Made by a program: the position numbers and the translations under genes
NCBI GenBank assembly: GCA_002104985.1
Contig: MCGO01000014.1
Location: forward strand, 62,001 to 126,000
From: Rhizoclosmatium globosum
Taxonomy: Eukaryota; Chytridiomycota; Chytridiomycetes; Chytridiales; Chytriomycetaceae
DNA length: 64,000 nt
Reading direction: 5' to 3'
Notes under the pieces: model-generated
What the model saw: the letters and a program-made list of their open reading frames with translations, nothing else
Database searches by the model: none
What the model was told of the DNA's origin: nothing
Shown here: positions 27,499-54,105 of the stretch, in pieces
Numbering within the stretch: the stretch's first letter is position 1
Layout of the letters: each line of letters opens with the position of its first letter

Positions 27499-27582
27499 AC
27501 AACAAAAGATTCCACACGAACAAAATCAGTCAAAGTGGTATCGCGCAAGAACATATTTCCTGGCTTATTAATATGAGAACAA

Positions 27583-27804: not shown

Positions 27805-27860
27805 CCGGTAATCTCTTCTCAAGTGGTCGACAAACTGCTTTCTGTAACCTCAAACGCCAA

Positions 27861-28246: not shown

Positions 28247-28280
28247 AACGAACGAAGTTGGTACAAAAATTGTCTATTTA

Positions 28281-31890: not shown

Positions 31891-32205
31891 ATTTCCTTGA
31901 AATGATTCTTAGACTATGATGATACATCTGAATGAATAAATATGTTTTCAGAGTTAATCCTTTTTCCTCTTTCTAAATTAATGCACTCAATTTTTTCCGG
32001 AAATCTTGTCGTTGAGTAAGGAGAGTGTTTGAAGATACGAAATTAACTTGCTAACAAACATTACAACTTACATGAAGTTTCCGGATGGGACAGTCGCCAT
32101 CAAAAATCCCAGATTATAATAAAGAAGGACGTTAAAAGTGCAATTTATTGTAACAAGCAGCAAAGTAAAATCGAAAACAAACAACAACGAACAAAACAAA
32201 CCACA
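31891..32205. other. convergent 3' intergenic region
   Basis: 315 AT-rich bases between the OPT and Skt5-like stop codons, with AATAAAT just after OPT (about 31935) and A/T runs. Nothing else visible. Confidence 0.5.
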
Positions 32206-34757
32206 TTACATCACTGTGCAATCCCCATCTCCAGCGTTAGCACCTTCTTTTCTCCAGTTTCCAGATCTACCCTTCTCTTGTACCTGACCCGACAACCCCT
32301 TCAACTCCTTTAACCTCTGCACGGCTCTCTTATTGTTCTGACCAGCAGCCCTCATGTACCACCTTCGAGCTTCTTCAACATCAGCTCTCACACCAACACC
32401 GTGCTCCGAATAGTATCCGACAGCGTATTCAGCCTTGGCCAGTCCCTTATCGGCAGCTTTTCGCGCCCACAAGTACGCTTCCGTGTCGCTCTGCTTCAAG
32501 ACACCTTCGGCTCCAGTCAAGTACCATCCAGAAAGTGCAAGTTCGGCTTCAGGGTCGCCTTGCTCGGCGGATCGGGTGTACCACGCGATAGAGCGACGAG
32601 CGTCAATTGGGAGGTCGAGGAGTCCGTATTCGTAGCACACACCCAGTTTATATTGCGATGGGGAATATCCGAGTTGTGCACCACGACGGTATAGATCATG
32701 AGCATATGATGGATCCTAGTGAAAACGTTGAGTCGAAGTTATTTGTGCGACGGCAAAAAACACTCACGGGAATGATGACTCCGTTCGTTTCCCCCTTTCC
32801 TTCATACAGTGTCGCCAATTCATGCAAAGCGTGTGGGGTCGTTTCATCAGCCTGACTTCCAGCTCTCTTCAACCAGGTAATACCCTCTCGTGGGTTCTTA
32901 GGTTGACTCAACAGTCCATTCAATAGAATCATTCCAAGTTTGTACATGGCTGCTGTATCTCCCAACGCAGCTGATTTTCGGTAAAACTGCACACTTCGTG
33001 AATAGTCTTTCTTTGTACCAGCGCCGACTTCGTAACAAACGGCGGCACGGTAAGCAGCGGCTGGATGGTTTTGTTTTGAGGCTTGGACGTATAGTGAGAA
33101 GGCTCGGTCATGATCAACAGAGAGCCCCAACGATCCGTTTCCGTAGCATTCAGCGAGGAAGAACATGGCTTCAGGGTATGCCGTACGCCCGCTTTCTGCC
33201 TTACACAGTTTCTTGACCCATTTGAGTCCCTCCGCATACAAAATATCCTGGTTCTTTTTCGCCTTCTTTGGATCTGGGTCGGACTCCATCGCAGCTAATA
33301 GTTGAAAATTGAGCTTTGACCGAGACACTTCAATGAAACTCAACTGTCTCCCGTCGCAATCAAAAACTTTGCAAAGTCGAGCTGAACAGCCGGATCCCAC
33401 TCTTTTTTGCGTTTTGACGATACACTTCCAGACTCTCTCCGTATGGCAAAGTAACTTGTCGACCAGTTGCGTTTGTGCCAGTTGAACGAATTGAACTGCT
33501 GTCGCTATCTGTTCTGACCAAGTTGGGTGGTGCAAAGTTACCCCCAACAGAGGAAGGTGGAGGAGGGATAAATTGTCCAGGAGGGGCAGGCATGTACGGT
33601 ATTGGAGCGCCGTTGGGGCTTATTGACGCACTTCCAGGAGGACCGGGAGGCCAGGTGGACGAACCATGTACCCATACGGATTCATCATCATTGGAGGTGG
33701 TGGTCCATACATCATTGGAGGAGGACGGACAGACTAGTTGTGAACAGAGCCGGTTAAATTGATTTGCTCAAGCCAATTGAGCATCACTCAAAAAACTCAC
33801 TCCGCTGGTGTTTTCTGATGCCGCAGATCCTCCATCTGAAAACGATTCTGAAATAACACTGATTCTACGATCATCGCCGTCTCCAGGTACATAGCTCGCA
33901 ACTCCATTTGACAGAATGCTCTGAAGTTCGCCTTGTTTGTCGTCGCCCTGCTCTGAAGATTCCGTAGATTTTGGAGTTCCCGGAGCAGCTGGGAATGGAG
34001 GACGGACCTGATGTAGTTGTGTCAGTGATAAGGGGGATCCAACAACCAAATTTCCATTTCCATTACCATCCAAGGTGGAGGAGGTCCCGGCATCATTGGA
34101 GGTCGACCAATCATATGAGGTGGAGGAATTCCCATTCCGGAGGAGGTGGCATCATTCCTGACGGAGGCGGCAACCACTGTCCATTTGGTCCCTGATTGAA
34201 AGGATTCGCAATCAGTTTATAAGTCCGCTATTGTCCTCACACCCTCTCGACAGAATTAAACGCTTCTTACCACCATTCCAGGGGGTGGTCGCATAAACGG
34301 AGGAGGAGGCATAAATCCAGGACGTACGATGAAAGGTGGAGGAGCCCCATTGGCATCCCGTTTGGAGCGGTTGAAGGGCTTCCTGGAGCGATTACAGGTG
34401 AGCCTGATGGAGGCGGTGCGTATCCTTGGGGAATAAAACCAGGAGGAGGAGGGGGGCGGAAGCCAGGGGGCGGCATTGCTAATTCAACACGTGCGATTAG
34501 ATTGGTTGTAGCGTATAAAGGAGACCAATCCACTGGGACTAGATCGCTTTTAAAACGACAAAGTACTTACGATATCCAAACTGGGGCGGTGGTGGTCTCA
34601 CTGGAGCGCGCATTGAAGCCGTTGAACCAACTGAGCTTGTCCGTGTAATCCCCTCAGTCGGTGGTCCAATCGAAGACAGGCGCTGCGGAGCCTGGACACC
34701 CATTTGATGAACTCCATTTGTAATGTCTTCCACGCCATTGCTGTCCTGGTTTGACAT
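32206..34757 (-). CDS. Sel1-repeat chitin synthase regulator (Skt5/Chs4-like)
   Basis: Start ATG 34757. The N-terminal third is Pro/Gly-rich (MPPPGFRPPPPPG, QGYAPPPSGSP), split by several introns. Then comes FAKFLIATG and a run of about seven Sel1-type repeats, for example AMFFLAECYGNGSLGL, AAYRAAVCYEVGAGTKKDYS, AMYKLGMILLNGLL, PSQYKLGVCYEYGLLD, AELALSGWYLTGAEGV and AEYAVGYYSEHGVGVR. The protein ends CTVM, a CaaX prenylation box like that of yeast Chs4/Skt5, which recruits and activates chitin synthase III at the bud neck. I infer membrane anchoring and a role in cell wall synthesis. The repeat region is open and consistent with the family. Confidence 0.9.
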
Positions 34758-34865
34758 TGTGTGAGACAATGGATGATGGGCTGTCGATGAAAAATCACCA
34801 AGTCAAAGAGACACAACAAACACGCCATAAACTCGTCAGCATTATTAAACAATTCTAAGCTTTAT

Positions 34866-36856
34866 TTATCGTCCTTTTATGGTGACAGCGAGCAAATAGA
34901 GATTCAATGCAGTTACGGCCACGGCAATCAGCATCACAAGTATTGTGAATGGCCATGAATTTGCGTAACATACATCAAACACCCGCATCTCACCCCCGCC
35001 TTCTCCATCTTCAGTAGTCGCGAGCATATTTCCATCAGAACTATATCGTGAACCATCTCCCTCCACATACCGCACAGTCATCACCCTCCTTGAACTAGTA
35101 AAAATAACCAACGGCCACACCGCAAACGGTAACAGCACACCCAAAATAACCTGCGACAACACAAGCAAATCATCAATCCCATGCGATCCCTGCGTCTGAA
35201 CAACAATCAAAGCCGGAACAATCGCAACACCTCTCGTAACCAACCGCCTCGCCCACATATTCTTCCTAAAAAACAACACCATCTTCCCCGTCGCACTCTG
35301 AACCCTCGCCGTAACCCTATTCCCTTCACCAGCCACCCCTTCCTTCCTCTTCACCCCATCCGAAACCAAAAACTCCCCTTCATCCCCAGGAACAGCATCC
35401 AACGTATCCTCCCCGCCCAAAAACCCTTCCATAACAACCTGCCCCGCAAGCGTCCCCGTAACCGTACTACACTGTCCACTGAAAAACAGACCCACAGCAA
35501 ACAGCGTCGCGCCACCGCTTCCAAGCATCTGCATCAACAGATCGTATGCGTCTTCGATGCCGCCGACGGATACGCTTTGGTCTGGGGTGTAGAAGGCTGC
35601 GGCCGCGGTTATGAGGATGAAGGAGTTTATGATTGTTGCGTAGAGGAGGGATACGATGCTGTCTACGTTCAAGTGGTGGAGGCATTGTTTTAGGAGGGGG
35701 AGGAGGTGGTCTGGGAGGGAACGGGGGGTCTTGTGGAGGGAGGTTGGGGTTGTTGGGGATGGTGGGTTTGTGACGAGGGTGACGAGGGTGTTTGCGGATT
35801 CGGTGCGTGTTGGGGGTAATGCCGCGGGGGTTATTTCGGCGTCAGGGTGTAAGGGTTGTGTTACATTTTCTGTGGATTCTCGTGGTTCTTGGACTTGATC
35901 CATTTTCTTGGCACCCACTTTGTTCTTTTCAAGGCGTTCGCGGTATGAGGGGGACTTGAAGTGGACTAGGGATGAGTGGAGGTATAGGTTGTGTGGCATG
36001 ACGGTCGCACCGAGAATTCCGAGACAGGTGTAGAGTGCAGTGGAGTCAGTGACGAGAATCGACGATGGCAGATAACCTTTGAATGCCTGGCCCCAATCCA
36101 CACCCAGTCGAGGAAGCAAGGCCATGAAGCAGACACCAACACCGAGAATGAGAATAAATATAAAGATTTCAAAGTAACGGAGGTACTTTTGGTTCCACCT
36201 GTAATGCAAATTGGTTCATGGCCATATCAAAAACAAAAGACACGTACCCAAACAAAACAATAAGAACATCAAGTCCCATGATTAAAACACCATACGTTAT
36301 GGGCAGCCCAAACAGTAATTTGAGGGACATTGCTGCCCCAATCACCTCTGCCAGATCGGTACAAATGATTGCCACCTCGGCCAGGATCCAAAAGAGCAAG
36401 TTGGCGACAGGATGAAGTTCCTTGCGACACATTTGAGGCAAATCCTTGCCTGTGACGATGCCCAGACGAATAGTCAGACTCTGGAGTGCAATAGCACACA
36501 ATCCAGACAGGAGTACGACAAAGAGAAGTGAATAGTTGAACTGTGTACCACCTGTTGTATCAAGTCATTAGGAGATCCATTATTATGTGCAGAATAACGA
36601 ATTCGTTTGAGTGGTGGCTCAATCCTAAGACATCACCCCAACACGTACCCTGCAGATCTGTGGCCCAGTTTCCAGGATCCATGTAACCGACAGCGACAAA
36701 GCCACCTGGACCAATCGTGGCCAGCACGATGGCAGCAAGGCGTTTAGCTGAGTTTCCCATGTTCCTCAGAGTCCAGCGTGGTCGTTGTTGTTCATTACTC
36801 TGATTCGCATCTACTATGATTGAGGATTCGTGTGAGGGAGGCGGCCTAGGAAGCAT
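34866..36856 (-). CDS. NRAMP-family divalent metal transporter (Smf-like)
   Basis: Start ATG 36856 (MLPRPPPSHE), because upstream in-frame codons lack ATG. Helix 1 has the metal-binding DPGN (GYMDPGNWATDLQ) and helix 6 has MPHN (GATVMPHNLYLHS), the two signature unwound-helix motifs of NRAMP/Smf proton-coupled Mn/Fe transporters. The loop with GQCSTVTGTLAGQVVMEGFL matches the family transport signature. About eleven to twelve helices. A cytosolic loop of ~80 residues after helix 6 (RERLEKNKVG... to HKTPRSLPDHLLP) and one in the second half (GEDTLDAVPGDEGE...) are longer than usual and hydrophilic. At least three short introns in the N-terminal half. Membrane location (plasma, endosomal or vacuolar) is not decidable. 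Confidence 0.93.
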
Positions 36857-37059
36857 AGTATCGAGTGTACAGGTTCGAGTAATGGCGGGCAAACAAAGAA
36901 GGTTTAGAAGGGCAAGTAGAGATTTTTCTTCTCTGGTATCGATTGAATTTTTGTTTCATAGGTTTGGCAGCACACCCTCAGTCAGCTCACTTCATTAGTT
37001 TTGCTGGACCCGAACCAAGTCCCGAACCAAGTCTTTAACCAGTTAGAAAGAGAGAGACG

Positions 37060-38936
37060 ATGTCGACATCTCTGAACCACCACCACCACCACAACCACCT
37101 TCACCCTCAACACGCACAACACGCACAACCAACCGACGCCGAAGCACCACAGCCACCGCCGTACTCGCCGCCCGCAACGCACTTCAGCCACAGCCACAGC
37201 CACAGCCACAGCCACAGCCACCAACACTCGGCCTTTGCCTCGCTCGCAAACTCGTCCTCGCCGTCGCCGCTCATCGGATCGCCCGCTCGAACGCCGAAAC
37301 AGATGCCTGGCGCCAGTCAGCGGCTGTCCGATGACGACTCGGACTACTCGGTCGATCTGTCGCGGCAGAAGGTCTTTACTTCTCCGTCAAAGAACAGACT
37401 CCTGTCAACCTTATTAATGGGAACTTCATCGTCTTCCTCGTCACCCTCTCCCATTGCTGCCTTCAGGAACCAGTCCCACTTGCTCGAAAACGCTAAATTC
37501 ATTGCCCTCTGTCTCATGTGGTACTTTGCCTCCTCTGTCACTTCAAACATTGCAAAGGATTTACTCAATGTCTACAACTACCCCCTCACTCTCTCATGGA
37601 TCCAATTCTTGTTTGTCGCGGCCGGTTGTCTGATTGTCACTTCCATCCAACATTATCTCTTTGGTGTTCAATCCGCTGGAATCAAGTTTCCTACTATCGA
37701 TGCTTTTCGTACTACCGCTCCCCTCTCCCTCTTTTTGATTTCTGGCCATGCTTTTTCTAGTATGGCCATCTCGCGTGTTCCCGTCAGTTTTGCGCATACC
37801 ATCAAGGTATTGTGAAATAGAAACGAGCAGAGAGAAATGAGCCAGCGGAGAGGAATGAGCGAGCGTAGCGAGCAATGCCGCCGGCAGGCTCGACGAAGTC
37901 GAAGAGAAATCGATGGAGTTGAGAGAAAGGGCGAGCATCAATTGAGTGATCCGTGAAGTAAAGAACGATCTACGTAGTCGAATTGAAACGACAGAGTCGA
38001 AAGAATGTGCGAGGAACGAGCACGGAAAAAATATGAGCGAGTGTAGCGGCAAGCTCGATGAAGAATAATCGACAGAGTCCAATCAATCTCTAACAATCAA
38101 AAATAGGCACTGTCACCTCTCTTTACAATCGGAATCTACCGATTTATCTTTAATGTCCAATACGCATCAAAAGTCTACGTATCTCTCATTCCCCTTACAA
38201 TTGGTGTTATGCTTGTCTGCACCAACAAACTCACATTCCACCTCCTCGGCTTCCTCTGCGCCCTCACATCCACAGTCATATTTGTTGTTCAAAATATCGT
38301 CTCAAAGGCAATCTTCAACAAACAAGAAGCCAAGAAACACAAGAAGATGGACAAGTACAACCTCTTGTTCTACTCATCCGTCACTGCCTTCATTCTCATG
38401 GCTCCACTCTGGTTCTACGCTGATGGAATGAGCATGTTTGGTGGAGATTACAAACGGCCGCCAGGTTTTGGACCTATAGGATCCGCCACGAACCCATACC
38501 AGGCCGCCCCATCTACTCACACCACAACATCCTCAGGCGTTACAATAGCGACAAAACAACTCGAATCACAGCAACCACGGGTGAAATTGTACGCCTCTTC
38601 CTCGTGAACGGAGTCTCGCACTTTGCACAAGCTGCACTGAGTTTCAGTATCCTAGCACAGGTGCACAACCCCGTCACTTTCTCCATCGCGTCTCTGTTCA
38701 AGAGAATTGTGGTGATTGTCGCGAGTATAGTGTACTTTGGGGAGACGAGTAAGGTTGGGCCTGTGCAGTGGCTTGGACTTGTCCTGACGTTTGTTGGACT
38801 GTATATGTACGATCGAGCAAAGATGGAAGTAAAGGTTGGGAATAGTAAAGGGATTGGGGGTGGAGACAAGGCTCATGGTGGAGAAGATGTCGAGTTTCTG
38901 GGCGGGAGGAGGAAACATACTTCCTTGCCGGTGTAG
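37060..38936 (+). CDS. SLC35/TPT-type nucleotide-sugar or phosphate transporter (Sly41-like)
   Basis: Start ATG 37060. A His/Ser-rich N-terminus (LNHHHHHNHLHP, then an HSHS repeat) and Ser-rich linker of ~140 residues precede the drug/metabolite-transporter fold. Visible: FIALCLMWYFASSVTSNIAK, YPLTLSWIQFLFVAAGCLIV, AFSSMAISRVPVSFAHTIK (family signature), then after a 300-bp intron (37807-38106) ALSPLFTIGIYRFIF, LLGFLCALTSTVIFVVQNIV, SHFAQAALSFSILAQVHNPV and SIASLFKRIVVIVASIVYFG. The last blocks are diagnostic of TPT transporters such as yeast Sly41 (Golgi/ER). A frame change of one base falls within about 38445-38550, in the loop between helices, so an indel or a missed intron is possible. 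Confidence 0.85.
37184..37225 (+). repeat. CACAGC hexanucleotide microsatellite, coding for His-Ser repeats
   Basis: About six units of CACAGC (AGCCAC) in frame, giving an HSHSHS tract in the N-terminal region of the transporter. Length variation would change the tract by two residues per unit. Confidence 0.8.
37807..38106 (+). other. unusually long, internally repetitive intron
   Basis: GTATTG donor, TCTAACAATC branch-like word and AAATAG acceptor, so a normal spliceosomal intron, but 300 bp against 40-80 bp for most introns here. It is purine-rich and carries two related blocks: one at about 37856-37915 and a shorter, diverged one at about 38032-38075, sharing ATGAGCGAG, TGTAGCG/CGTAGCG and AAGCTCGATGAAG-like words. 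This looks like inserted repetitive DNA that became or enlarged an intron. Confidence 0.65.
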
Positions 38937-39077
38937 ATGGAGTATCAAGGCTCTCTTCTGATTGTGAACTATTCTTTCTTCGTTTTCTTCGTCTACGCGA
39001 ATTAGATACGCGGTGTAATCTCCTCGTTTATAGTTTTTTAGGGCATCTTTTTGCGTCATATGAATACAAAGCAAACT

Positions 39078-40144
39078 TCATTCAGAAATAAGTCCTACTC
39101 CTCGATTATCTTCAGTTCCAATACTCAAGAATTCTTTAACCAAATTGGATACCACCGCACTTGTCTCCGCCTCCAAATGGAGGTGATGAGTTCCTCCTTC
39201 TACCCACACTACCTGAGTCTCGCCCCCTTTCCTTGACTTTAATGCGTCCATCCGTTCAACAACAAGAGGATCTCCCTCACGCAACAAATTAGATGCGGAT
39301 CCCAATACAACCAACTTATCACAACTAATATTCCGCATAATATTCACAACCCCTGTGTGATCCCACTGAAAGAAATGACGCATCAACAGCCTTTTATCTG
39401 TCCGCAACTTGTATCCAACAACCATTTCCCCGTCTCCTCCATAAACAGCCTCACATCCCCGCGTACACAAGCACAAAGCGGCCTCCAACGAAACTTTTGT
39501 AACTCCATCCATCCGAACTCGCGCTGCCGCGTCCAAGCTTTCATACACTGTCCGTGGACTCTCCGCCTTCACCCCAGCCTCCTCCAAATTCAAAACACGC
39601 CGCCTATCCATGTACACCCGCATAGACGCTGCATCATCGTTCGCAGTATTCAGTCTATTCACGAATCCAATGCTTTCGATAATCACGAGGGATTCAAGTT
39701 TTTCCGGGTATGTTCCTGCAAAGAGATATGATGTGTGACCGCCAAGAGAGTGACCGATGAGTGTGAATTTGTCCCAGTTGAGAGATGTTGAGACGTCGTG
39801 GATTGAGAGGGCAAAGTCCCACAGGTAGTAGGTTTGGCCACGATGGAGGGGATCTGAGTGGCCGTGCCCAGGAAGGTCGATTGATATGAGGGTGATGGAT
39901 GGTGACGTGATTGACAGATTGGTGAATAGATTTGCGGCAAAGGAGTCGAAGCTGTTTGCATTGTCGAGCTAATTGAAGAAGGGGTTAGACTGTTTGGCGA
40001 TGGCACGAAACAGAGACTCACCCAGCCATGAACAGCCAATATCCGCACTTCACGCCCACTAGAAGATGATAAATGCTGGTATTTCTTGCCCGCAATCCGG
40101 AGTCCATTGGACGCTACGAAAGAGGTTTCTGTCCATTCAACCAT
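39078..40144 (-). CDS. alpha/beta hydrolase (SERHL-like)
   Basis: Start ATG 40144 (MVEWTETSFVASNGLRIAGK). After VLAVHGW-type strand and intron (about 49 bp, ~39970-40018) the sequence continues LDNANSFDSFAANL, then LISIDLPGHGHSDP and the nucleophile elbow FTLIGHSLGGHTS. The catalytic Asp is probably in KLVVLGSASNLLREGD or near it, and the His in VEGGTHHLHLE close to the C-terminus. The HGWLDN, DLPGHG and GHSLGG combination resembles serine-hydrolase-like (SERHL) proteins and meta-cleavage hydrolases; substrate unknown. No signal peptide. Last residues SIGTEDNRGVGLISE. The frame is continuous in both exons. Confidence 0.88.
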
Positions 40145-40259
40145 TTTTTCAAACTCGAATTCTTCCGTCAATTTCGCTACTCACCCCATGGCCCACAAGT
40201 TACACCCTGAGCCCCACAAGCACGCCAGCGCCCTCGGACTTGTTCCACCATGATAACAT

Positions 40260-41622
40260 ATGTTATTAGATGTCGAGGTGAGTGTTCGTGGGCTACTCTG
40301 AGGTCTCTGCGGCGGTTGGCCATATCAGCAATCAACCAACTCACAACTCACCTTACAGACGCATTCTCCACTATCACCGACGCCTCCAACGCCTCCAAAC
40401 AATCTGAAACGAAAAAGCACCGAAGCCGACGACGCCTCAAAATCTGGTATAAGTTGGGGCTTCTTAAAAACGTTCACTGATTCTAAACGCGAACCCGCGA
40501 AACAGCCAGCCATCAGTCGTATGAATATTCCGCTCATTGTTGACCTCACCCGTAGCTCTGCCAGCAACTCGCCCAGCAGTAGTGTCTCACCCTCTGCCAT
40601 CTCCGTGTCATCAGGTCCACTTTCGCCTGACGCCATTGCTTGTCTCAATGAGCCCTTCACCATATCCTCCACTCCTTCCGTTATATCACTTGCTGCTACT
40701 AGTGACGATACCATGAGTCTGTCAGATTCTGATTCGTCTACTTCGAGTGAGAATGTTGCCTTCAATGACGATAACATTGACGTAATTGAAACTGACGCAA
40801 TGGCGGCGATTCAAGCAAAACTACTTCAAATGAATCTTATCCAGGCTAAGCGTGTAGCTCATCAAGTCGGCCACCCTCAAACAATGAATCTTGATGACTT
40901 GCGAGAATCTCTTGCACAGCACATTGTGGAAATGACGATGCCGTTACGCAATGGTGCCCCTTTGGATGAACTCTTGATTATTGGAATTGATCCTGGTACA
41001 GCAAGACTTGGTTGGACTGTTTGTGTTGGGTCTGCAAATGGATTCCGTGTTTTGACAGCTGGTCTCTTCTCATGTGATGGCAACGTCAGAAACCGCCAAA
41101 ACTTAGGATACGAGCTTACAAGACTTACAGAAATCATATTCGAGTCCACCCCTCCATTGCCACGACCAATCGAAACAGTCTTCGTTATTGAACAACAAAC
41201 TATTCGCGGCGGACCTTTTGTGCAAGCTCTTTTGCCAGTTTACAATTGCGAAACAATTCTTACAACTCTGGCAATGCGTTTTGCAGCTGTTACAGTTTCC
41301 GCGAATGCCAAGTCTGTCTTTTCGTATTGGAAAGAGCAAGCACTCTTGGACTTTCAGGTAAAGCTACGATTTATATCATACACATGTTAAAAGTGAGCAG
41401 GTGGGGGAGACAGAAGCAGCGAGGCAACGGCGAGGGCGAAGAATCAAGAAACAGAATGCAACACGGATTGTTCGTGATTGGCGATCGCAAAATGAAATTG
41501 AAGTTGACAACGCAGTTCCTGACGGGACTTTGGCGGTACATGATGTCGCAGATGCCATAATCTTGGCGAGAAGCGGTTGGGAATGGATACAAAATGCACT
41601 GAGAGAACAGAATCTAATTTAA
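40260..41622 (+). CDS. CCE1/Ydc2-family Holliday junction resolvase
   Basis: Three exons (40260-40277, 40359-41357, 41401-41622; introns 81 and 43 bp) give 412 residues in phase. RNase H-like resolvase motifs: LLIIGIDPGTARLGWTV with the first catalytic Asp (~245-260), FVIEQQTIRGG with the Glu, and HDVADAIILARSGWEW with the C-terminal Asp pair. A short helical segment before the catalytic core (LLQMNLIQAKRVAHQVG... LRESLAQHIV) looks like the SAP-type region of yeast Cce1/S. pombe Ydc2, which resolve mitochondrial recombination intermediates. The ~200-residue Ser-rich N-terminus is long and carries NLKRKSTEADD; no clear mitochondrial presequence, so nuclear action is possible. Stop lies 33 bp from the convergent recombinase stop. 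Confidence 0.88.
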
Positions 41623-41655
41623 TAATTCCGAATTTTAATAAATTTGTTTATTTGG

Positions 41656-43364
41656 TCAAAGGTTATTCCTCAAAGAAACAGCAGGTCCACATGGGCAATT
41701 ACGACCACAGTAAGAACATGTTTTTGGAAGGGTGTGAGTCTTATCCAACAAATCTTCGCGGGAAATTCGAGGTACATCGTAGATACTATGCAAATATCTG
41801 ACAAGGTGAGGAGTTAGAAGGTCATGACAAATTCAAACATATCTTACCGAACAATAGTCATTGAACCAAACTCCAATGACCAGCCACCCCAATTGCAAAT
41901 CATCGTCAAATCCCATCTACGTTCGGAGAGAAAGTACTGTGCACCACCTCGGCGAAAACTATGCGTGCCGTAAAGATGAGCTTCAAGTCCTATATCCAAC
42001 AAAACACTTCGGAAAAGTTCCAAGTATCGATCTGAAGGCTGTTTATGATATAAGATAATTAAACAATAAACAGCATTCCCCACCATTGCAACACTGTCAC
42101 CTCCGTGAAATGCAGGAATCCCTGCATCAATCTCAGTGTAATTTCGAAACATTTTCCCTGAAGACCTCTCCCTCAAAAACAAGCGCCAACGGAGGTACGC
42201 CCTAACAGCACAAAGATGTGGTTCGTCATGATCGATTGGTAAGTAAAAGGGTTGGATACCGCCCTCTTGCGCGGTTTTACGAAATGGTAGCTTGAGTTCC
42301 AAACGAAGCTTGAGGGATTCAAGTTGGACATTTCCAAGAGCAGCTATTTCTTTGAGGTATTGCCACTTTCCATCCCGATTGATTTGCAAACGACAGTGCG
42401 GAATTTCAATATTCAGCGTTTCATCACTGCGAAGTAAACACAAAAATGAGACCACGTAACCAAACTGTAAGAATGATTAGACTTTTACAAATACATAACT
42501 CTAACGTACGTAGAGCTCGGCACAGAGGTGGTCGGTGAGTTGTTGTCGCCTCTCTTGAGTAACACCTTCAACGAGCAAGTTCATTCGTTCCGTTCTTCGA
42601 GAAGGATTAAAAAAAAGGTCGTAGATACATTCCAAGTCAAAGCATGTGAGAGATCGCATGGAAGCCGCAACATCCCCATTTCTTGCCTTCTTTCGTCTTA
42701 AACCAGCAAGATAGTCTGTCACAATTGTCGACAGCGCAGGATTTCCAATCCACTTGTTTCCATACGCCGTCCAAGTTGAGAATCCCTCTTTTCTGTATTG
42801 ATAGCTGATAGCTGATCTGATAAGGTTGGCAACTGAATAAGACAGATTACGACAGGATAATTCACTTCCTGCTGTATCTTTCAGACCAACTATATCATCA
42901 CACTGCAGCATAATGTAAGCCGCTATATACTTTGGGGTGTTCTTATCAGGGATCATGGGATCGTGACCAGGTACTGCATCTGCAAGCCAGCCCAAGAACT
43001 TTTTCCAAGTAGCCTTGTACGTTTGGTTTGTTCCTTTTGTGCGAGCTCCATCAACTCCAATCATGATTGCGTTCAACGTTTCGTGCAATGCGTTCCGTCT
43101 CATATCAGTTTCGTCACAGTTCTCATCGTGTGTTTCTTCCATAGTTTGATCATTTTCGATTTGCGGCGGAATAGACGATTGTGCAGTTTTGAGGGCAGCA
43201 TCAATATCCAACGCCCGGTGGTTTTCATCTTGTTCCTCCAAGAAATTGTCAAATTCTTTCAAAACAGAGCCCCGCAGAATCGCTGAAGGCAGCGGCGTTA
43301 CTGGAGCTACGGATGTAGGGGATCTGCTACTTTGTTTTGGTGATCTGCTCTTCGATGGGACCAT
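41656..43364 (-). CDS. tyrosine recombinase, Crypton/DIRS-like, complete
   Basis: 537 residues in three exons (43364-42510, 42464-41848, 41797-41656; introns 45 and 50 bp), all phases closing. N-terminal Ser/Pro-rich arm, then a core-binding (SAM-like) domain GTNQTYKATWKKFLGWLAD and AAYIMLQ. The catalytic domain has Arg I in CLLRSDETLNIEI, the linker LPFRKTAQEGG...PFYL and HLCAVRAYLRWR typical of fungal YR elements, HxxR in THSFRRGG, the GGW box, and the nucleophile Tyr in TIVRYLHS. The third exon adds a Cys-rich end CSYCGRNCPC that could bind zinc. All catalytic residues are present, so it may be active. It is head-to-head with the gene at 43377. Confidence 0.9.
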
Positions 43365-43376
43365 TTTTTGTTTCAA

Positions 43377-45877
43377 ATGACGACATCAAACAACCTTCGA
43401 CGAAGCGGAGACGACCCATTCATTCCGGCAGAAACTTTGAACGATGCTATTGGATCTACAACAATTGATGGCGGAAAAAGGATATACTACTTTCGTAAGG
43501 TGGGCAACCAAACGCCGGAGCTTTTGACAGGTCCCAGACTGGCCTTCTATCTCAACCAAGCACGAATGGCAGAGAATGAAAAGCTTCTATAGTGAGTACA
43601 ATATGGGCAACTGGCACACGGCTTAGACCATTTTTCACAGTTATGCCCACGATGTTTGCGAAGCAACTGGCGCCATTTCTTTCAGTCAACTAAAGGAATA
43701 CAATTATAAGAGCGGGAGAAGTCGGGGCGAATTGCGAAGCAGGAATGTATTCGGGAATGGAGATTCGACCACTACAGTTGAGAAGGAGGGCTCCACTCAA
43801 TCACGAAAACGTCGGAGAGTTGCTGATGTTGTCATAGACGCAGGCGATTATGAATCAAGTCAGCCCACCTTATCGAATATCAAGATTCGAGGTGAAAAAG
43901 ATGAGGCCACCGTCCTTTTGTTTGCGACGGGTCGTGATATGAAGTTTTGGGTGAAGTCAATTGAACGACTCTCATGTGCGGGGAAGATTCGAGATCATGG
44001 TGTGGTAAAGTTGTGATTGATTCTTATGGTGAAGCTGATCCTCGTCGTTGCCAGGATGGCCTCAGAAAGTATGTTGAGTGTGTCTTCAAAGTGATGCACG
44101 AGTCGAAACCTCTTGCAAAATGCGATGGATTTTACAGTGACCTTCCATCTCTTCCATCCGATGTCGAGGAGCTGAAATTATTACATCAAAAGTTTGAATC
44201 TATGTGTCGCATTGACGCAAACAAAGGGAAAAATATGGCAGAAAACTCCGAGCCAGTGAATTCTGAAGTCTCCACCAAAAGCAAACCTAAATCAACAACA
44301 TTGCCACCGCTCAGGAAATCAACTACTGTCAGCAAGGCCCTCAGTGCCAGCTTCACCACATCAAATACGGTCAATGTGGGGCCTAATTTCTGTGAAGAGG
44401 TCAACGCAGCATATTCTCTTGCACTCGTGTTTGAAACTCGCGGATTGCTCAAATACAACCCAGTTGAAATCGAAAAGTGCCCTTCTACAACGGAAGATAT
44501 TGTTGATTCTCTTCGAAGCTTGCCATTGGGAACTGACTCCGAATCACGGCTGCCTTCGACGTTGTCCAATGTTACTCCTCTGTTGTCCCAGAATGGAAAT
44601 GGAAATACAAGCACAACAGTTCTACAACAAATCACCATTATTCAGATTCCTCCACCACAGACAGCAGCAGGGACCAAAGAAGCTTCTACTAAAGCATCAC
44701 AACTTTTGCATCCAGAACAAGAAGATACTGACAAAAAGTTCGAGCTTGATGATGTTATTCACGTGTATAAGACGCTTCACCGACCACAGACCATTCCAAT
44801 GTTTGATGTCAGAAAAGGGGAGTCCTTGAAACAGCTTTGTTCACTGTGGAACTCAACGGAGCCACCAGCTCGCGAATATTTGTGGCATTTTGTAAACGTT
44901 TTCGGAGAAGAAATCTTTGTTCCATTGAGCAAAGAGAAGCGATTGCTTCATGGTACGGATTTCTGGAATCAAACGAAGAGCAAGAATTGGTCAAATTGGG
45001 AGGTAAGTACTGCAGTTTGTTAAGCAACATCCGTCTAATTTGCTTTGAACAGAAGGCAGTGGCTGCAGTGGAAAAGTGCGGCGGTTGGACAAAGTTTACA
45101 GAAATGGCTAAAACCGACAAGCCGCTTATTCAAACTGCGTTAAATCATGCAAAAACTCTGACCGGGTGGGAAACACATACAAGTTTGTGTGGATTGGTGA
45201 ACACCAGATTGTCGCTGTTATTTATTAAATCGAAGAGGGAAGGCAATGGATCCAATGAAAGCGTGGCGAGTACATCCTCCAATGGATTCTTAGAAAATGC
45301 GAATGAAACTATTGTCGATTGGTTCAAAGAGGAAGCAAGCCTAGATTTGGGGAGTGAGGAAGTACAACAGTACTTGAGGTCAACAAAACCGTTCTTCAGT
45401 CGAAATGGAGCTGGCACCAACAAGCGTTTAACAGTGAAAAAAGAGTCGAAAATTTCAGCAGCATGGCGTATTGAGTTCGGGTTTCCATCTTCGATTGATG
45501 TTGGGTTGACACGCGAAAAACAAATTCGGAACATCCAAAAGCTGTATTCAGAAGATTACGGAGGCAGTGGTGACGTCATTGAATATGATACGGTTGCTGG
45601 ATATGTTGTTTTCTCTGATGGATCACATTTCAAAGAACTTGATACTACAGAAACCAAAAAGGGGTATAGACGTACTCTGGATGAAGACATTGGAGAAAAG
45701 GAGTATGTTATGATTGTTCCGAGCTTGAGAGCACACGGACTTCCGTCATATGCTTTTGCAGATTTTGTTAGGTCCCGCGGAACGAATGAAGGCCTTGTAA
45801 TTCCATATTCTGTGTATTTGGAAGAATATGAAAAATGGAGTCGGTCGACGGCGGCGAGATTATTGCGTCCTGGTTGA
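43377..45877 (+). CDS. large unknown protein paired with the tyrosine recombinase
   Basis: I do not recognise the family. ATG 43377 lies 12 bp from the recombinase ATG. Introns near 43593-43640 and 45003-45051 keep frame. Visible: DGGKRIYYFRKVGNQTPELL at the start, an NLS-like SRKRRRVAD (~res 130), a folded-looking AYSLALVFETRGLLKYN, REYLWHFVNVFGEEIFVPL, KAVAAVEKCGGWTKFTEMAK, and a C-terminal block EYDTVAGYVVFSDGSHF, YVMIVPSLRAHGLPSYAFAD and VYLEEYEKWSRSTAARLLRP. One frame change occurs at 44007-44009, where one more A in the AAA run restores the reading. Position suggests a second gene of a mobile element, for example a DNA-binding or targeting partner, but that is inference. Confidence 0.7.
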
Positions 45878-46358
45878 GTGTTCCAAATAAAGAATGTTGT
45901 TATTTATAACCGAACTTTTGCTTCCACTCTGCTATCTTAAATTTGTGATTTAATTTCTAAATTATGTGGGTGTTGTGGTGGTTGCTGGGATGGGGGTGGT
46001 GTGTTGGTGTGTGTGCCTTGCCGGCCGTGTGTAATTTTGGGCCACAATTGGTGTAGCGAAATTCCCTACTCATCAGAAATTCGCGTTGGGCCACAATTGA
46101 TTTATTGTGGCCCAAACTTCGTGAATTTGGCGGGTTCACTACTTTGGGCCACAATAGACGAGAAAAGTGAGGGATTCTGACCCTCCCGAGAGAGTTGAGG
46201 CGATGCCGCTTTGGCTACAGGTAGATATACACTTTATTCATCTATGGTAGAAAGGGGAGGGATGGGGATGGCCTGTGTCGGCGGTGCGGACGCGTCTGCG
46301 TGTTTGACATGTTTGAAACGGGGGGTCTTGAAAATTTTCAGGCAGGCCAAGTTGGGCC
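45878..46358. other. intergenic region with G-rich and repeat tracts
   Basis: 480 bp between the unknown gene and DUF4246 copy 2. It has a GGGTGT/TGGGGG-rich stretch (about 45966-46016), the TTGGGCCACAAT repeat cluster annotated separately, and an AAGTTGGGCCATGG context around the DUF4246 start at 46359 that repeats the first half of the motif. No ORF of note. Confidence 0.5.
46037..46155. repeat. cluster of TTGGGCCACAAT repeats with a palindrome
   Basis: Three direct copies (46037-46048, 46086-46097, 46144-46155) and one inverted copy (46104-46115) of TTGGGCCACAAT within 119 bp; the first two extend to TTGGGCCACAATTG. The second and inverted copies form a perfect 12-bp palindrome with a six-base spacer. 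It could be a binding-site cluster, a hairpin or a recombinase target next to the tyrosine recombinase unit. Confidence 0.85.
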
Positions 46359-48293
46359 ATGGTGTGTAGTGAAGTTGACCCTCTTGATTTTGAATTCTGC
46401 TCGAATTCAATGAAACATCCCTCTACTCCAAACTTTCGTTACAAGACGCTTCCAATTCGTACAGACCGTGAAGTCAAATACATGGTCGTGCTCAACGAGA
46501 TCCTGATCAAACCGGAGTGGTGGATCAAGCTCAAGGACGAGGCGATTGCAGCAAAGTGGAAGGGCGAAGTCCGCGGCGGAATCACGGCTTTGCTCAGGCC
46601 CGGTGGAGGTGAATTAAACGACGTCTATGGGAATGCAGAAGGTATTTTTGATCGGAGGAGGAATAATGGCGGAACATGAGTAACAATCTGTCACAGACAC
46701 AAAGGAAAACCTGGTCGCGCACGTCGTTGACAGCGAGTTTGTGAATCAAGTCACTGATTATCTGTTTCAGGTATATTCGCCATCCTCTGCATTGAAGCTT
46801 GTGATATTTACTAATGAGCAAAACTCACCGAAACATAGGAACTTCACTATATAGCAAATAATCGATTAATAACACAAAAGAATGGCGCTATTATTTCTCC
46901 AACGTCTAGTCACGGCGTCTTCATTTCTGATTCCCTCATTCCTCGGGATATGGTATCGCAGTTAGCTCAACATGCTGCATCCGTTGAAGCAATCTCGTTC
47001 ACAAAAGCGAAATGGCACGAAGGATCTGATGGAAAAGTTCTGGACTTGATCCATCCCTCTGACTATTGTCTGGTGTATGGACGTTCGCATCAACGGGAAA
47101 GAATTACGCAGCCTGTGGGATTCAAAGTACTTGAATACAAGGGACCTAATGGTGGAGATATTTCTCGAAAGTTTCAATGGCTTCCAAGTGAATTCAAAGT
47201 GAATGGTGAAGGAAATGTCTCTATTCGTTCATATATCAACAATCTGAACCGTCGCCAGTGCCCCGAGTTGCAAAGTAGTATTCTATCAGTATTTGAAACT
47301 ATGGTTCCCATGTTTGAACTTGCGTTGGGATCATTACAGTCAGTTCCCGTCAACAGAATTCGAGCTCCGTTGGCTAATAATGCTTATCAGCTTAGTCAAG
47401 GGCGCTGGGAGCTTGACGAGTATTTACGCGATAAATATGGTGCGAATGTGAACTTGAATGACCAAGCTCTTCAACATAGTACGCTTTATGACGATGATTA
47501 TGACGAGTTCGTGGACAACCTCATGGAACGAATTTCTAGACGACCCGTGAATATTCCAGGCCTCCCAACTGAGCTTAGCTCACTGAATGATTCAGAAGTT
47601 TGCAGATTCAGTTTGGCTGGACGCAACCTGCAAGTAATCGTAAAAATGGCCAGCATTCACTTGACTCCTGAGAAGCCAGTCTTTAATGGCGGAAGTTGGC
47701 ACTTGGAAGGAATGGAAAACGAATCTATTGCAGCCACAGGAATCTTATACTACTCAATGGACAACATAACGTCTTCTCGCTTGACGTTCCGAAATGTCCA
47801 CGAATCTGACAGAGATGGAGTTTTTGTTTATGAGCAAAGTGATTTCGGTGGACTTGAAAAGGTCTTTAATTTCACTAACGAGGTTTCCACCAACGTTCAA
47901 GTATGTGGACAAATCGAAGCGCGTGAAAACCGATGCGTTGTGTTCCCGAATTATCTTCAACACAAGGTGGAAGATTTTGAGTTACTCGACAAGACACAGC
48001 CAGGCCATCGCAAGATTCTAGCATTCTTTTTAGTTCACCCCGATTTCAATGTGACCTCAACAGCAGACGTGGGGATGCAACAACTTGAATGGCTTGCAGC
48101 AGAGTTGTATGGGATCTGTGGACTTGGGTCGAAACTGCCTCTCGAAGTTGTTCGTCTAATTGCAGGTTTCACTCGTGCAACATTGACAGAGAAGCAGGCA
48201 CAGAGAGTAGCTCATCTAGTTATGGAAGAGAGAAAGAATACTCCCAAGGATGGGTATGCTAATGTTCAGAGTATTGTCCTGTGTGAGCATTAA
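46359..48293 (+). CDS. DUF4246 family protein (copy 2, intact)
   Basis: 603 residues in three exons (46359-46641, 46697-46770, 46839-48293; introns 55 and 68 bp). DUF4246 hallmarks: VLNEILIKPEWWIKLKDEAI near the N-terminus, IHPSDYCLVYGRS, EVRSYINNLN-like IRSYINNLNRRQCPE, VIVKMASIHLTPEKP, GGSWHLEGMENESIAATGIL, DNITSSRLTFRN, ENRCVVFPNYLQHKVEDFEL and GHRKILAFFLVHPDFN with STADVGMQQ. The WHLE and QHKV histidines plus the following Arg resemble the metal and co-substrate ligands of a double-stranded beta-helix oxygenase, which is inference since the family has no assigned activity. An alternative start is ATG 46410. This is the only copy of three with a fully open frame. Confidence 0.88.
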
Positions 48294-48474
48294 TCAGCCA
48301 TGAAAACTGTGGCTTAACAAATAATCATAATTAACTTCCTTGTTGATTTAAACCTGAATATATTGCTGTTCTGTATTGCATATCAATTTCAAGACCCTTC
48401 CGGCCCTACCCTCCTCTGAATATCGAGCGAGTGGGCCAATATCTTGATTTCCCCATATAATCTCCAAATAAAAG

Positions 48475-50342
48475 ATGCAAGATCCTGTGTTCCGATACAA
48501 GAAGCTCCCAATCCGCACGCATCGCGAGTCTTTATACTTGAGAGTTCTCAACGAAATCCTCATCAAGCCGGAGTGGTGGATCAAGATCAAAGAAGAAGCG
48601 GTTGTTGACAATTGGAGGCAGGAGGCCCGATGCGGAATCTCGGCATTGCTTCTTGGCAACAATGGTGAAACGGGAGTTGGGCAAGCGAATGCCGGACCTG
48701 AGGCTGTGGAATTGGAACGTAGTGCTGATGTTGAACCAACAGCCGTGGATGCCGACATAGACACAGAACAACAGCCTATAAGACATGTCACAGATTCAGT
48801 TTGTAAACCAGATCGTAAACTTTCTATTCCAGGTTTGCTAATCTGTTTGGGACTGATCGCATCATCTTACTCAAACAACCCTGACAGGAACTCGAATACA
48901 TTGCCGCGAATCGCTTAATCGTTCACAAGAATGGCGGAACAATTGTTCCAACGTCCAGCCATGGTGTCTTTATCTCGGATAACGTTGTTCCAATACAGAC
49001 CATCTCTCATTTGGCTCGATATGCTGCAGCCATTGAATCTGAATCATTGAAAAAGAATAAGTGGCACGAGGGCTCCGACGAAAAAGTTCTTAACTTGATT
49101 CATCCGTCGGATTACTGCTTGGTATATCGACGTTCGTTGAAAAGAGGGAAACTCACACAGCTTATTGGATCCGAGCCCTTTCAATACACTGGTATAACTT
49201 ACGGTGATGTGTCCGAAAAGTTTCAATGGCTACCGTCAGAGTTCAAGGTGAATCAAGATGGTGGTGTCGAGATTCGTTCCTACATCAACAATCTGAACCG
49301 TCGCAAACATCCTGAGGTGCAAGATGCAATCAAATCAATATTTGAAAGTATGGTTCCAATGTTTGAACGCGCGCTTGGATCTTTTGAGACACAACCTACA
49401 AACAGAATCAAAGCCTCCTTGAATAACAACGACTACCAGCAAGATCAATATGAGTGGCAATTCGATGAATATTTACGTCACAAACACGGTGTGAATGTCA
49501 ATTTGAAGGATCAATCGCTGCGAGAAGCCGCTGAGGATGATAATGAACTTGACGAGTTCATCGACAGCCTTTGGGAATCAAAAAGATTCCGTCCAATTCA
49601 CGTTCCTGGATTACCAAAATCGTTTGAAGTACCTGCTGACTCTGAGGCACACTGTTTCAACCTTGCTGGTCGCCACCTTCAAGTTATTGTCAAAATGGCC
49701 AGTATTCATTTGACGCCTGAGAAGCCTTCGTTCACTGGTGGAAGTTGGCACCTGGAAGGAATGGAGAACGAAGCTATTGCGGCAACAGGAATCTTATATT
49801 ATGCAATGGACAACATTACATCTTCGCGATTGACCTTCCGAAACGTGCACGAGCATGATGAAGACGTTAACTTTACATATGCGCAGCATGATTACGTAGG
49901 TCTGGAAAAGGTATTCAACTTTGAAAACGCGTCAACAAATAATGTTCAAATCTGTGGTCAAATTGAAGGTCGGGAGAATCGCTGCGTCGTGTTCCCAAAC
50001 TTTTTGCATCACAAAGTTGAAGATTTTGAGCTTCGGGATAAGACTCGTCCTGGTCATCGCAAAATTCTGGCTTTCTTCTTGGTTCACCCAGACTTCAAAG
50101 TTATTTCAACCGCAGATGTCGGAATTCAGCAACTTGACTGGGCTGCGGAGGATTTGTTCCGGATTGGTGGCTTTGGATCCAAGTTGCCCATGGAGATTGT
50201 AAGACAGATTGTTGTCGCAAGTGGCGGTTGTTTCTCAGAGAAAGAGGCCAATGAGATGGCTGATCTGGTTATGGAAGAAAGAGTAAATACACCAGAAGAA
50301 TGGTATGCTAACGTCCAGCACATCAATCTTTGCGAGCACTGA
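48475..50342 (+). CDS. DUF4246 family protein (copy 3), one frame break
   Basis: Tandem paralogue of copy 2. Exon 1 from ATG 48475 (MQDPVFRYKKLPIRTHRES, LNEILIKPEWWIKIKEEAV) reads to about 48797, where a net two-base deletion (or one-base gain) relative to copy 2 shifts the frame; the correct continuation is FVNQIVNFLFQ. An intron of 55 bp then joins to ELEYIAANRLIVHKNGG and the rest is open to 50342: IHPSDYCLVYRRS, VIVKMASIHLTPEKP, SWHLEGMENEAIAATG, GHRKILAFFLVHPDFK. The two copies agree over the last ~440 residues, with most differences in the linker before PGLP. The break is not in a homopolymer, so it may be a real mutation. Confidence 0.75.
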
Positions 50343-50428
50343 TCTAGAAACGTTGTGTTGAAATGAACTATCTTTATTTTCTATTAACACAATGAATAAA
50401 TAATAAGCCCCAGAACGCGAACACTGAT

Positions 50429-51374
<946 letters not shown>

Positions 51375-51486
51375 ACGTCAAACAACTGAACAAACTATCA
51401 TTATTGGGGTTCTTTTTAGATACTGTAGCATAATAAAAGAAATATACATTTGTACGTAACTGAGTATTATCAAGAGATTTACATCC

Positions 51487-53270
51487 ATGGTCAATCCGAC
51501 CGTTTTCTCGGATCATGACGTTCTTTCGCTCGGCTATGTCGTTGCCGTCCTTTTGATTTTATCCGTTTGCCTAATGTTTTTTCTATTCTGGTTCGCTTCG
51601 TTTGAGGTCATCAGGCTTCACTCTCGTCTGACTTGGCAACTTGTCTTGACACCATTCAACAAAATTCTCACTGTGATGAACTTGTCGATTCTTCTTATTT
51701 TCTTATCTGAAACTGTTTCGCTCTTTTGGTTCTCGTCTGCGGAGATTGATGATCTTTGGATCCGTTTTGTTCGTCCATTTCAAACTCTGTGCTTTGCACT
51801 CTTTTCTCAGTCTTATCTGTACTATAGTTGGCAAAGAGGGTAAATTCTTAATTGTTGAAAGTTGTAGCTTAACCTGAATACAGTGATAAGTCCGTTGAGT
51901 CTATGATGCCAGAAAGGCTTATTGTGTTCAAGTGCTATATACGTTTCTCAATCCTTACGTCAATTGCTTCTGTTGTTTCTCAAATAGTACGCAGTATTAT
52001 GTTCACTGTATCGAGTACTTACTACTTGGTGTTCGGCCTCTCTGTTCTTGTTTTAACACAAACAATTCTCTTTGATGGAATTGTTCTTCTGGTATTCCGT
52101 ATGCATACAATCGAAACCAAGATGAATGATGCTGACAGTGTTGATGCGCACTTTGGTATTGTTCTCCATTACGGCCTGCTCGCGCTGCTTTCATTGACAT
52201 TCACTCTTACATCAACAATATTGTCCTATGTAGTCAATGGTACGAAATCTTTCATTGTTCTTCGAATATTTACGTATATTCTCTTGTTCCTGACGTATGT
52301 GTCGTTGGTGATGTTGAAAGTGGCGTTGTTTTGGGACAAGGTACGGAAAGAGGAAGAGGAAAACTCAAAATTGCAACAAGTCATTGGCAAAGAGGAGATA
52401 GAAAGACGGAAACAAAGGTCCTTAGATGCCCACAGCAGATCAGGCTCAATCGATAGCAATATTTATCTTTCGGCTTTGTTTCCCTCTCGTGAATCTCTTG
52501 ACAACTTGAGTAACTTTTCGCGCCACAAGCGAGAGTCTACCAACAGTGGCTTCTCAGCCGACAAAACCAGCGAAAAATCTGAGCTTCGAAAGTATTCCAT
52601 GGATTTATCTCGAGATTCATTCGACAGACCAGAGTCCACCAAACTGCAGAAAGGGCCAGGGTCATTGATGAGATATGCTTCTATTGAATCTCTTCGTGAT
52701 TCTGTGAGCTCAATGTCCACTCCCAAGAAGAAACCATTGCACAGGCATAAATCCGTTCAGTCCTCACCCAGAAAGTCTGCTCTCCAAATTGATGACGAGG
52801 ATGAATATGGCTGTAATGCAAATGAATTGGGTTCCAAATCCAAGAGTCTACTAGAGCTATATTCCAACCACGATAAACAGGATGCGATCAGTGATATTGA
52901 CCTAACTAATATTCGCGATACCACCGCGTCCGAGCCAAAGTGTCCTCCCAAGTCAACGACACAAGAAAACAGTCCATATCAGTCGCTCGATCGGCAAAGT
53001 CCAAAGCGATCAAACTCTCTTGATAGCAATAATCCCCGGCAATTTGATCGCGACAGCCGAACCAATATTTCAATTGATCGGTTTCGAGGATCGACTGACA
53101 CATTATCGAAACTCACTACAACTAAGCCATTGCGACCAAGTAACCTTCGTGAGTTTTCTTCTCCAGATGTGGCGACAGAATCTCCAGATGACACGGATGA
53201 GAATGTTGATGATTCAGAAAACGAATCGAAATGGAGTATTGCTTGTACTTATCGTGGCTCTGAATCTTAA
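51487..53270 (+). CDS. seven-helix membrane protein with long Ser-rich tail
   Basis: 579 residues in two exons (51487-51839, 51884-53270; intron 44 bp). Helices: VVAVLLILSVCLMFFLFWF, PFNKILTVMNLSILLIFLSE, FQTLCFALFSQSYLYYSWQR, FSILTSIASVVSQIVRSIMF, YLVFGLSVLVLTQTILFDGI, GLLALLSLTFTLTSTILSYV and IFTYILLFLTYVSLVMLKVALF, seven in total. The PFN helix-2 start and the YSWQRG loop after helix 3 match the tandem copies at 18877 and 20025 (PFNILL, YSWLRG). About 290 residues of Ser/Asp/Arg-rich cytosolic tail follow, with many SxxS and RxxS sites suited to phosphorylation. A GPCR-like role is possible, but no known family signature is visible. Confidence 0.75.
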
Positions 53271-53339
53271 ATAAATAAAATGATTATATGACGAGACAAA
53301 TAAAAGAATAGAATGTTATTGTTTGGAAGAGAAAAACAA

Positions 53340-53411
53340 GACTCCTTGGCGCAACGGTAGCGCGTTCGTCTCCAAAGCGAAAGGTTGCGTGTTCAAATCA
53401 CGTAGGGGTCA
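53340..53411 (+). tRNA. tRNA-Trp (anticodon CCA)
   Basis: 72 nt, no intron. Acceptor GACTCCT pairs with AGGGGTC; D arm GCGCAACGGTAGCGC; anticodon stem TTCGT/GCGAA around loop CTCCAAA (anticodon CCA); T arm GCGTGTTCAAATCACGT. Internal A and B boxes are present, and a T-run (TTTT at 53415-53418) follows as Pol III terminator. The 3' end A is the discriminator; CCA is not encoded. Confidence 0.95.
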
Positions 53412-53439
53412 AACTTTTGGTTTTTGACTTTCTCTTGGA

Positions 53440-54051
53440 ATGTCCCTTACAATTTCGTTGCGCATTTCCCGTACTCTGCGCCTCAATGGAACCCATGGTA
53501 CCTATCGCTATTATTCTCAAAGGCCTGGATCTGTGAAGCGAGCAGCCCCTGCAGGCAGCCCTGCAGGTGTTTGTTCAACACCAGGCCCACAGCCTCGTTC
53601 CTGCCCTCCGTCTCTGCTTACATCCGAATACCATCCTGAGAAGCTGGTCAAGTCTCAGTCGGAGTCTATACCGTCCACGATCAAATCTTGGGTTCCTGGG
53701 GACTCTTTCTCATTAGAAACGATCAATAGGGACGTCCTCGCAACAGCTTTGGATCGTATATCACTCGAGATTGACCAATTGAAGGAAGCATTGAAGAATC
53801 ATGAACTGCGACGAGATATGATGGATGCAGGTTCACCGGCACGGCAAATGACTATCAACGCCATCATTATGGTTTCCGGACTATTATCAACTGCAATCAA
53901 GGCGAAAGAAGCTATCATTGTTCTACAGAAAGCTTTGCGACAGGGTGGAAACGCCAGTGAAGTAGAGAAAGCCGTCGCCACTCTAACTCCATACTACAAT
54001 GCAGAACGTGGCTTTCTATTTGATTTTGAACCACCCTACTTCCTTATTTAG
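53440..54051 (+). CDS. hypothetical protein with likely mitochondrial presequence
   Basis: 203 residues, single exon from ATG 53440. The N-terminus SLTISLRISRTLRLNG is Arg/Ser/Leu-rich and lacks acids, as in mitochondrial targeting peptides, followed by YRYYSQRPGS as a cleavage-like context. A Pro/Cys-rich linker follows, then a helical region DVLATALDRISLEIDQLKEA, TINAIIMVSGLLSTAIKAKE and AIIVLQKALRQGG that is amphipathic or coiled coil. C-terminus FDFEPPYFLI. No known domain recognised. The start is only 29 bp after the tRNA gene. Confidence 0.6.
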   Translation: MSLTISLRISRTLRLNGTHGTYRYYSQRPGSVKRAAPAGSPAGVCSTPGPQPRSCPPSLLTSEYHPEKLVKSQSESIPSTIKSWVPGDSFSLETINRDVLATALDRISLEIDQLKEALKNHELRRDMMDAGSPARQMTINAIIMVSGLLSTAIKAKEAIIVLQKALRQGGNASEVEKAVATLTPYYNAERGFLFDFEPPYFLI

Positions 54052-54105
54052 TACCTCGTCATTACAAATAATATTCTGATTCCTCATGAAAAAAGAGTTT
54101 TGTCA

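Follow-up and report, generated by a model that had tools for sequence, protein, structure and literature searches.

Does a tyrosine recombinase (YR) gene that starts 12 bp away from an orphan gene on the other strand belong to a mobile element, and if so, where does this element end and which genes does it carry? The question is raised by a 64,000-nt stretch of contig C46 in the genome assembly (56.9 Mb in 420 contigs) of Rhizoclosmatium globosum, an aquatic chytrid of the Chytriomycetaceae, of a strain that is presumably JEL800. This whole stretch is called the window, and positions given without a contig name are positions in it. The initial annotation proposed that the YR and its partner form a two-gene mobile element at 41656-45877. 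In this study, we believed that one of the two versions of this locus probably carries a tyrosine-recombinase DNA transposon of 6.2 kb.

This reading draws first on an empty site. Contig C15 is a second version of the locus, colinear with the window at 97.4% identity over 26060-40162 (14 kb) on the left and at 96.5% identity over 46400-56137 (9.7 kb) on the right, and between these aligned flanks C15 holds nothing. The break is exact to the base: position 40162 aligns to C15:120879 and position 46400 to C15:120887. Because the two flank alignments overlap by 9 bases on C15, the empty site has a single CTCGAATTC, whereas the window has two copies of it, as a direct repeat at 40154-40162 and 46400-46408. 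The alignment to C15 places the inserted DNA at 40163-46399 (6,237 bp), so that both ends lie outside the interval first proposed. The insert lies within the 19 bp that separate the start codons of two host genes arranged head-to-head, a DUF4246 gene and an open reading frame (ORF) named by eye as alpha/beta-hydrolase-like. The insert carries three open genes, namely a RuvC-like gene, the YR gene, which is tail-to-tail with it, and the partner. The RuvC-like gene next door had been overlooked, and the two-gene composition does not hold. The suggestion that the locus is mobile was borne out: an empty site and a short target repeat were looked for and found at C15, and the opposite case of a fixed locus that is never absent was also looked for, and C15 lacks the element. 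We conclude that the insert is a mobile element, and this conclusion is well supported. The comparison is made between assembled contigs alone, and C15 might therefore be a paralogous segment or an assembly artefact, with no insertion polymorphism behind it. We consider this highly improbable, given about 97% colinearity on both sides, the base-exact break and the single 9-bp repeat left behind; another contig pair, C223 and C44, also resembles two versions of one region (98.8% over 4.2 kb), as do the window and C15.

The insert has imperfect terminal inverted repeats (TIRs) of 27-29 bases, set 4 and 20 bp inside its borders. The left arm at 40167-40195 (plus strand) matches the right arm at 46353-46379 (minus strand) with a local score of 32, which was reached by none of 5,000 dinucleotide shuffles and none of 5,000 random window pairs. 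Such inverted ends and the exact 9-bp repeat would also fit a cut-and-paste transposase, encoded by the partner or elsewhere, which depends on the inverted repeats, made the insertion with a 9-bp duplication and carried the YR and RuvC-like genes as passengers. The partner is large and without an identified family, and there is a precedent in MarCry, for which the relevant passages of PMC3212892 describe TIRs and TA duplications. However, no DDE family was found by Pfam in any of the three proteins, and we regard this alternative as possible but unlikely. Near the right end, four exact GGGCCACAAT sites (three on the plus strand and one on the minus strand) lie within 117 bp at 46039-46155, and exact copies in the window are confined to this cluster. 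When one mismatch is allowed, the whole window has 7 sites, and 10 of 100 shuffles have at least as many. The motif in itself is thus not rare, and the clustering alone favours the possibility that these are candidate protein-binding sites. The sequence GAATTC is found twice at the right border, 11 bp apart (46392-46408), once inside the element and once in the 9-bp repeat.

The YR gene (41656-43364, minus strand) encodes 537 amino acids in three exons (43364-42510, 42464-41848 and 41797-41656). Family assignments of all insert proteins were made with Pfam, and for some also with PHROGs, NCBIfam and PDB sequences. The YR bears LLRSDE, RKT, HSFRRGG, GGW and TIVRY, the pattern conserved across an alignment of the window protein with 28 of its 52 database matches, and both introns are GT-AG and in frame; the Arg, HxxR, GGW and Tyr residues and the two phase-correct introns of the initial annotation were thus confirmed. 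The Cys-rich last exon that it described is also present (CSYCGRNCPCG), but it is not an extra: the tail CxxCGRxCxC was seen by eye in 20 of the 29 aligned rows, some of the other nine of which look truncated, and it is therefore a family trait. The 52 matches came from 7,998 scored candidates in the protein database, and one of them is from the R. globosum genome. The closest, at 96%, is named Rhizoclosmatium globosum; most of the others are Agaricomycete by name, and many are annotated as "DNA breaking-rejoining enzyme". From another chytrid, the best match is a protein of Obelidium mucronatum, with 41% identity over 66% of the query. Against solved structures, a profile of this alignment gives weak matches to Cre and to an integrase (best E 0.003), and for some relatives Pfam shows a weak match to Phage_integrase. 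NCBIfam gave no match for the window YR or the Obelidium YR, and no relative of the YR was found in viral contigs.

The RuvC-like gene (40521-41622, plus strand) has one exon to 41357 and one from 41401, with an intron at 41358-41400. Its ORF is open from 40302 and its first Met is at 40521; the start is uncertain, since an ATG that is conserved upstream, at 40250, may be part of an additional exon on the 5' side. RuvC resolvases have acidic active-site motifs in the order D, E and HDxxD. The encoded protein contains IIGIDPG, VFVIEQQ and VHDVADAI, in which we take the GIDPG, E and HDxADA motifs to be RuvC-type, and the D, E and HDxxD motifs stand in order both here and in a RuvC-like protein on contig C334. 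Its profile matches are weak but agree with one another: it matches Pfam RuvC at E 0.0044, the RuvC-like resolvases of PHROGs at E 0.00048 and RuvC of known structure at E 0.02, and a genome-wide search with PF02075 at E 10 gave this gene as the sole match (E 0.06, 18.3 bits). Among 5,350 database candidates, one matches, and it is the window's own ORF. Four distant RuvC-like stretches (C46:286724-287362, C93:35273-35911, C392:161361-161981 and C392:126153-126773) show 24-29% identity at E of about 1e-4, in open frames of 281-309 amino acids. About 250 bp at C223:354990-355229 and at C44:69988-70216 are 75-78% like the 5' part of the RuvC-like gene, and they may be a shared 5' exon or an old fragment.

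The partner gene (43377-45877, plus strand) encodes an orphan protein of 783 amino acids in four exons (43377-43591, 43641-44004, 44055-45002 and 45053-45877). Its start codon at 43377 and that of the intact YR at 43364 on the minus strand leave 12 bp between them (43365-43376), so the head-to-head arrangement was described correctly. At the empty site, the two host genes likewise stand head-to-head, with 19 bp between their ATGs, and the 12-bp gap is therefore not special as such. The partner had been said to have no recognisable family, and we agree: no Pfam match reaches the curated cut-off (the best, ICAP-1_inte_bdg, has E 0.05 for one exon and 0.14 for the whole protein), searches of PHROGs (to E 1) and of PDB sequences (to E 10) gave nothing, none of 7,989 scored candidates in the large protein database reaches E 0.001, and no relative of it was found in viral contigs. 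Single-sequence AlphaFold models of partner exon 4 and of the RuvC-like ORF had a mean pLDDT of 37-38. Compared with decayed copies, the ratio of nonsynonymous to synonymous substitution rates (dN/dS) was 0.59 for the YR (520 codons; 12 synonymous and 25 other changes), 0.41 for the partner (280 codons; 13 synonymous and 19 other changes) and 0.31-0.39 for the RuvC-like gene (145 and 87 codons). Since one copy of each pair is decayed, these values would be raised, and they come from few changes.

Recurrence of the element was judged within this one R. globosum genome, from selected contig stretches (50 kb at C268 and 3 kb at C334). Its close relatives are fragments on C268, C201 and C235. On C268, YR and partner sequence recur at about 96% identity in rearranged pieces, with a similarity that spans window positions 41658 to 45904. 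These edges are the edges of the two-gene unit without the RuvC-like gene, and they would fit a nested or composite element, in which a unit of YR and partner (about 41656 to 45904) landed in a RuvC-bearing element, or became joined to one, and the two then moved together. We find this improbable, because C201 has RuvC-like sequence contiguous with the YR 3' end (C201:23104-23866) as well as the left element end joined to partner sequence (C201:94384-95770). These junctions indicate a single lineage of copies to which each of the three genes belongs, and a RuvC-like gene lies beside the YR on C334 too. The left element end is also found on C235, and C223 and C44 have just a diverged part of it. 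The broken YR-partner copy at C268:257122-282337 fits one inversion of about 23.5 kb and an insertion in the partner, and direct 2-kb repeats (C268:251174-253236 and C268:282510-284587) lie around it.

A second, diverged YR is present on C334, and its copy on C279 is identical over the 257 amino acids compared; more YR-like pieces are on C346 and at C201:64133-64297. The RuvC-like gene of C334 is tail-to-tail with the diverged YR, and the same pair is found on C279. After splicing, the RuvC-like proteins of C334 and the window align with a score of 97, compared with a shuffle maximum of 52 (0 of 500 shuffles reached it). The RuvC-like intron is at the same place in both, before the RRIKK stretch, and YR intron 1 is at the same codon boundary, after ELY. 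NCBIfam gave no match for the C334 RuvC-like pieces. The C334/C279 pair and the shared intron positions argue that the YR and RuvC-like genes have long travelled together. This also bears on the transposase alternative: passengers need not recur as a pair at a diverged locus, and the partner, which would be a candidate for the transposase, is less constant. It accompanies the YR on C268 and occurs in fragments on C201, whereas the genome-wide partner search had nothing on C334, C279 or C346 among the matches listed.

An ORF on C334 does diverge from the YR there, with starts 55 bp apart. It was rejected as a partner homolog, as its N-terminal score of 22 was reached by 397 of 500 shuffles. The initial annotation had supposed that the divergent pair may be conserved and that occurrence of the two genes apart would speak against this. 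Recurrence at C268 lends weak support to the supposition and the dissimilar ORF on C334 does not, and within this genome the genes are partly found apart, with a YR but no detectable partner on C334 and C279. A conserved YR-partner divergent pair is not shown.

Contig C201, with its decayed element copies, also has ORFs like those of large DNA viruses (L015:6276-6803, L015:8152-9498, L016:34-1110 and L025:1193-1921), with two D5_N matches, a Bro-N with T5orf172 and a weak, sub-threshold Pox_A22. An endogenous virus as carrier was considered and rejected, as Pfam found no capsid or polymerase family in the insert. On the same contig, a 5.4-kb block is duplicated at 98% (C201:24950-30353 and C201:70407-75807), and each block has inverted 2.4-kb arms with an ORF that is glycoside-hydrolase-like by eye. 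The window itself has three DUF4246-type genes, which are 2-oxoglutarate oxygenase-like (9342-10912, 46410-48293 and 48490-50342). The middle one was assigned by Pfam and the other two by resemblance, and the last two stand in tandem beside the insertion.

Several points weigh against a transposon moved by its own YR. C15 could have lost the element through exact excision. TIRs together with a target duplication are typical of DDE transposases, and Cryptons are described with neither in the relevant passages of PMC3212892 and PMC3627910. Each element end occurs once in the genome at up to 3 mismatches; with one complete copy, one insertion site and such single ends, the 9 bp may be either a YR core or a true target-site duplication. 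Searched at full length, the window YR gives nothing in Pfam at E 1. The Pfam RuvC match of its neighbour (E 0.0044, 17.3 bits) is below the curated cut-off of 22.2 bits, and so is the genome-wide PF02075 match. The 50 kb examined around the C268 copy showed no RuvC-like sequence, and none of the four distant RuvC-like stretches is near any YR match in the genome. BLASTP gave no alignment between the window RuvC ORF and the C334 fragment when both were without their last exon; adding the last exons made the match clear. We still hold the tyrosine-recombinase transposon to be the probable reading, and we infer that the YR itself moved the element.

We speculated that the YR would pair the two element ends or excise a circle, exchange strands over the 9-bp CTCGAATTC core and integrate at a matching target. 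The RuvC-like nuclease might cut the Holliday junctions that arise in this reaction, or else branched intermediates that form when the excised element replicates. As for the orphan partner, it would most likely be an accessory or regulatory protein that binds subterminal DNA, and the 12-bp start region that it shares with the YR would serve the expression of both. Tentatively, this could represent a previously undescribed class of eukaryotic DNA transposon: a YR would make a Holliday junction at ends flanked by TIRs, and a dedicated RuvC-type resolvase encoded by the element would finish the reaction. If this is true, such elements would be self-sufficient and leave a 9-bp duplication. Cryptons, the closest described fungal YR DNA transposons, are reported to lack inverted repeats and, in most cases, to carry no gene besides the YR. 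A culturable chytrid that has both a naturally inserted element whose genes are open and the matching empty site would offer a system for testing element movement, and a way to ask whether an element-borne Holliday junction resolvase takes part in the reaction; R. globosum JEL800 is termed an emerging model in a passage of PMC12115818. The insert also points to what may be a partner of this YR family, which many mushroom genomes contain.

In literature searches on Cryptons, fungal YRs, and RuvC or other resolvases in transposable elements, no title or abstract opening described an element of this make-up. The passages of PMC3212892 on Cryptons give them 4-6-bp direct repeats and no TIRs, and mention a peptidase in some, namely a C48 peptidase besides the YR in some CryptonS and oomycete CryptonF. 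Similarly, part of PMC3627910 describes YR elements as lacking TIRs and duplications, and also reports elements of uncertain class with a partial Crypton recombinase and duplications. The insert resembles Cryptons in being a DNA element with an R-H-R-Y recombinase, short direct repeats at its ends and no reverse transcriptase family among its proteins. In contrast to them, it has imperfect TIRs and RuvC-like and orphan genes, and where Crypton repeats of 4-6 bp serve as the recombination core, it has an exact 9-bp repeat, known from one insertion only. Unlike CryptonF, its YR has no GCR1_C domain (Pfam, E 1) and has the Cys tail instead. In Fusarium, MarCry is a Crypton fused to a Mariner, from which its TIRs and TA duplication derive, according to the passage in PMC3212892. 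As far as that passage goes, MarCry-1_FO is like the insert in that it bears a YR, has TIRs and is flanked by a target duplication, but the insert is without a detected DDE transposase and has a 9-bp duplication, not TA. DDE transposons have TIRs and a target duplication of fixed length. The insert has inverted repeats and, at its one insertion, a 9-bp repeat that may be such a duplication, and none of the three insert proteins has a DDE family match (Pfam).

In Starships, which are large elements with cargo, the captain is a DUF3435 YR placed at one end. Our element differs from them in having no DUF3435 match, a length of 6.2 kb and a YR in the middle. Fanzor and TnpB proteins have an OrfB_IS605 domain and a zinc ribbon, and the RuvC-like exons have no OrfB_IS605 (TnpB/Fanzor) match in Pfam. 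Fanzor1 RuvC-type nucleases occur in various transposons, including Cryptons (a passage of PMC10711439). DIRS and Ngaro elements have a reverse transcriptase and RNase H alongside the YR, and two chytrid genomes are given as being without YR retrotransposons in part of PMC3783388. Unlike them, the insert has no reverse transcriptase or RNase H family (Pfam). The RuvC-like protein shares with RuvC Holliday junction resolvases the ordered motifs and weak profile matches, but its gene is very diverged, bears an intron and lies inside a transposon. Homologs of the RuvC-like and partner proteins were found from no other species in the protein database, whereas the YR belongs to the same protein family as the Agaricomycete recombinases of Mycena, Suillus and others, mostly at 30-38% identity and, in most aligned rows, with the same Cys tail.

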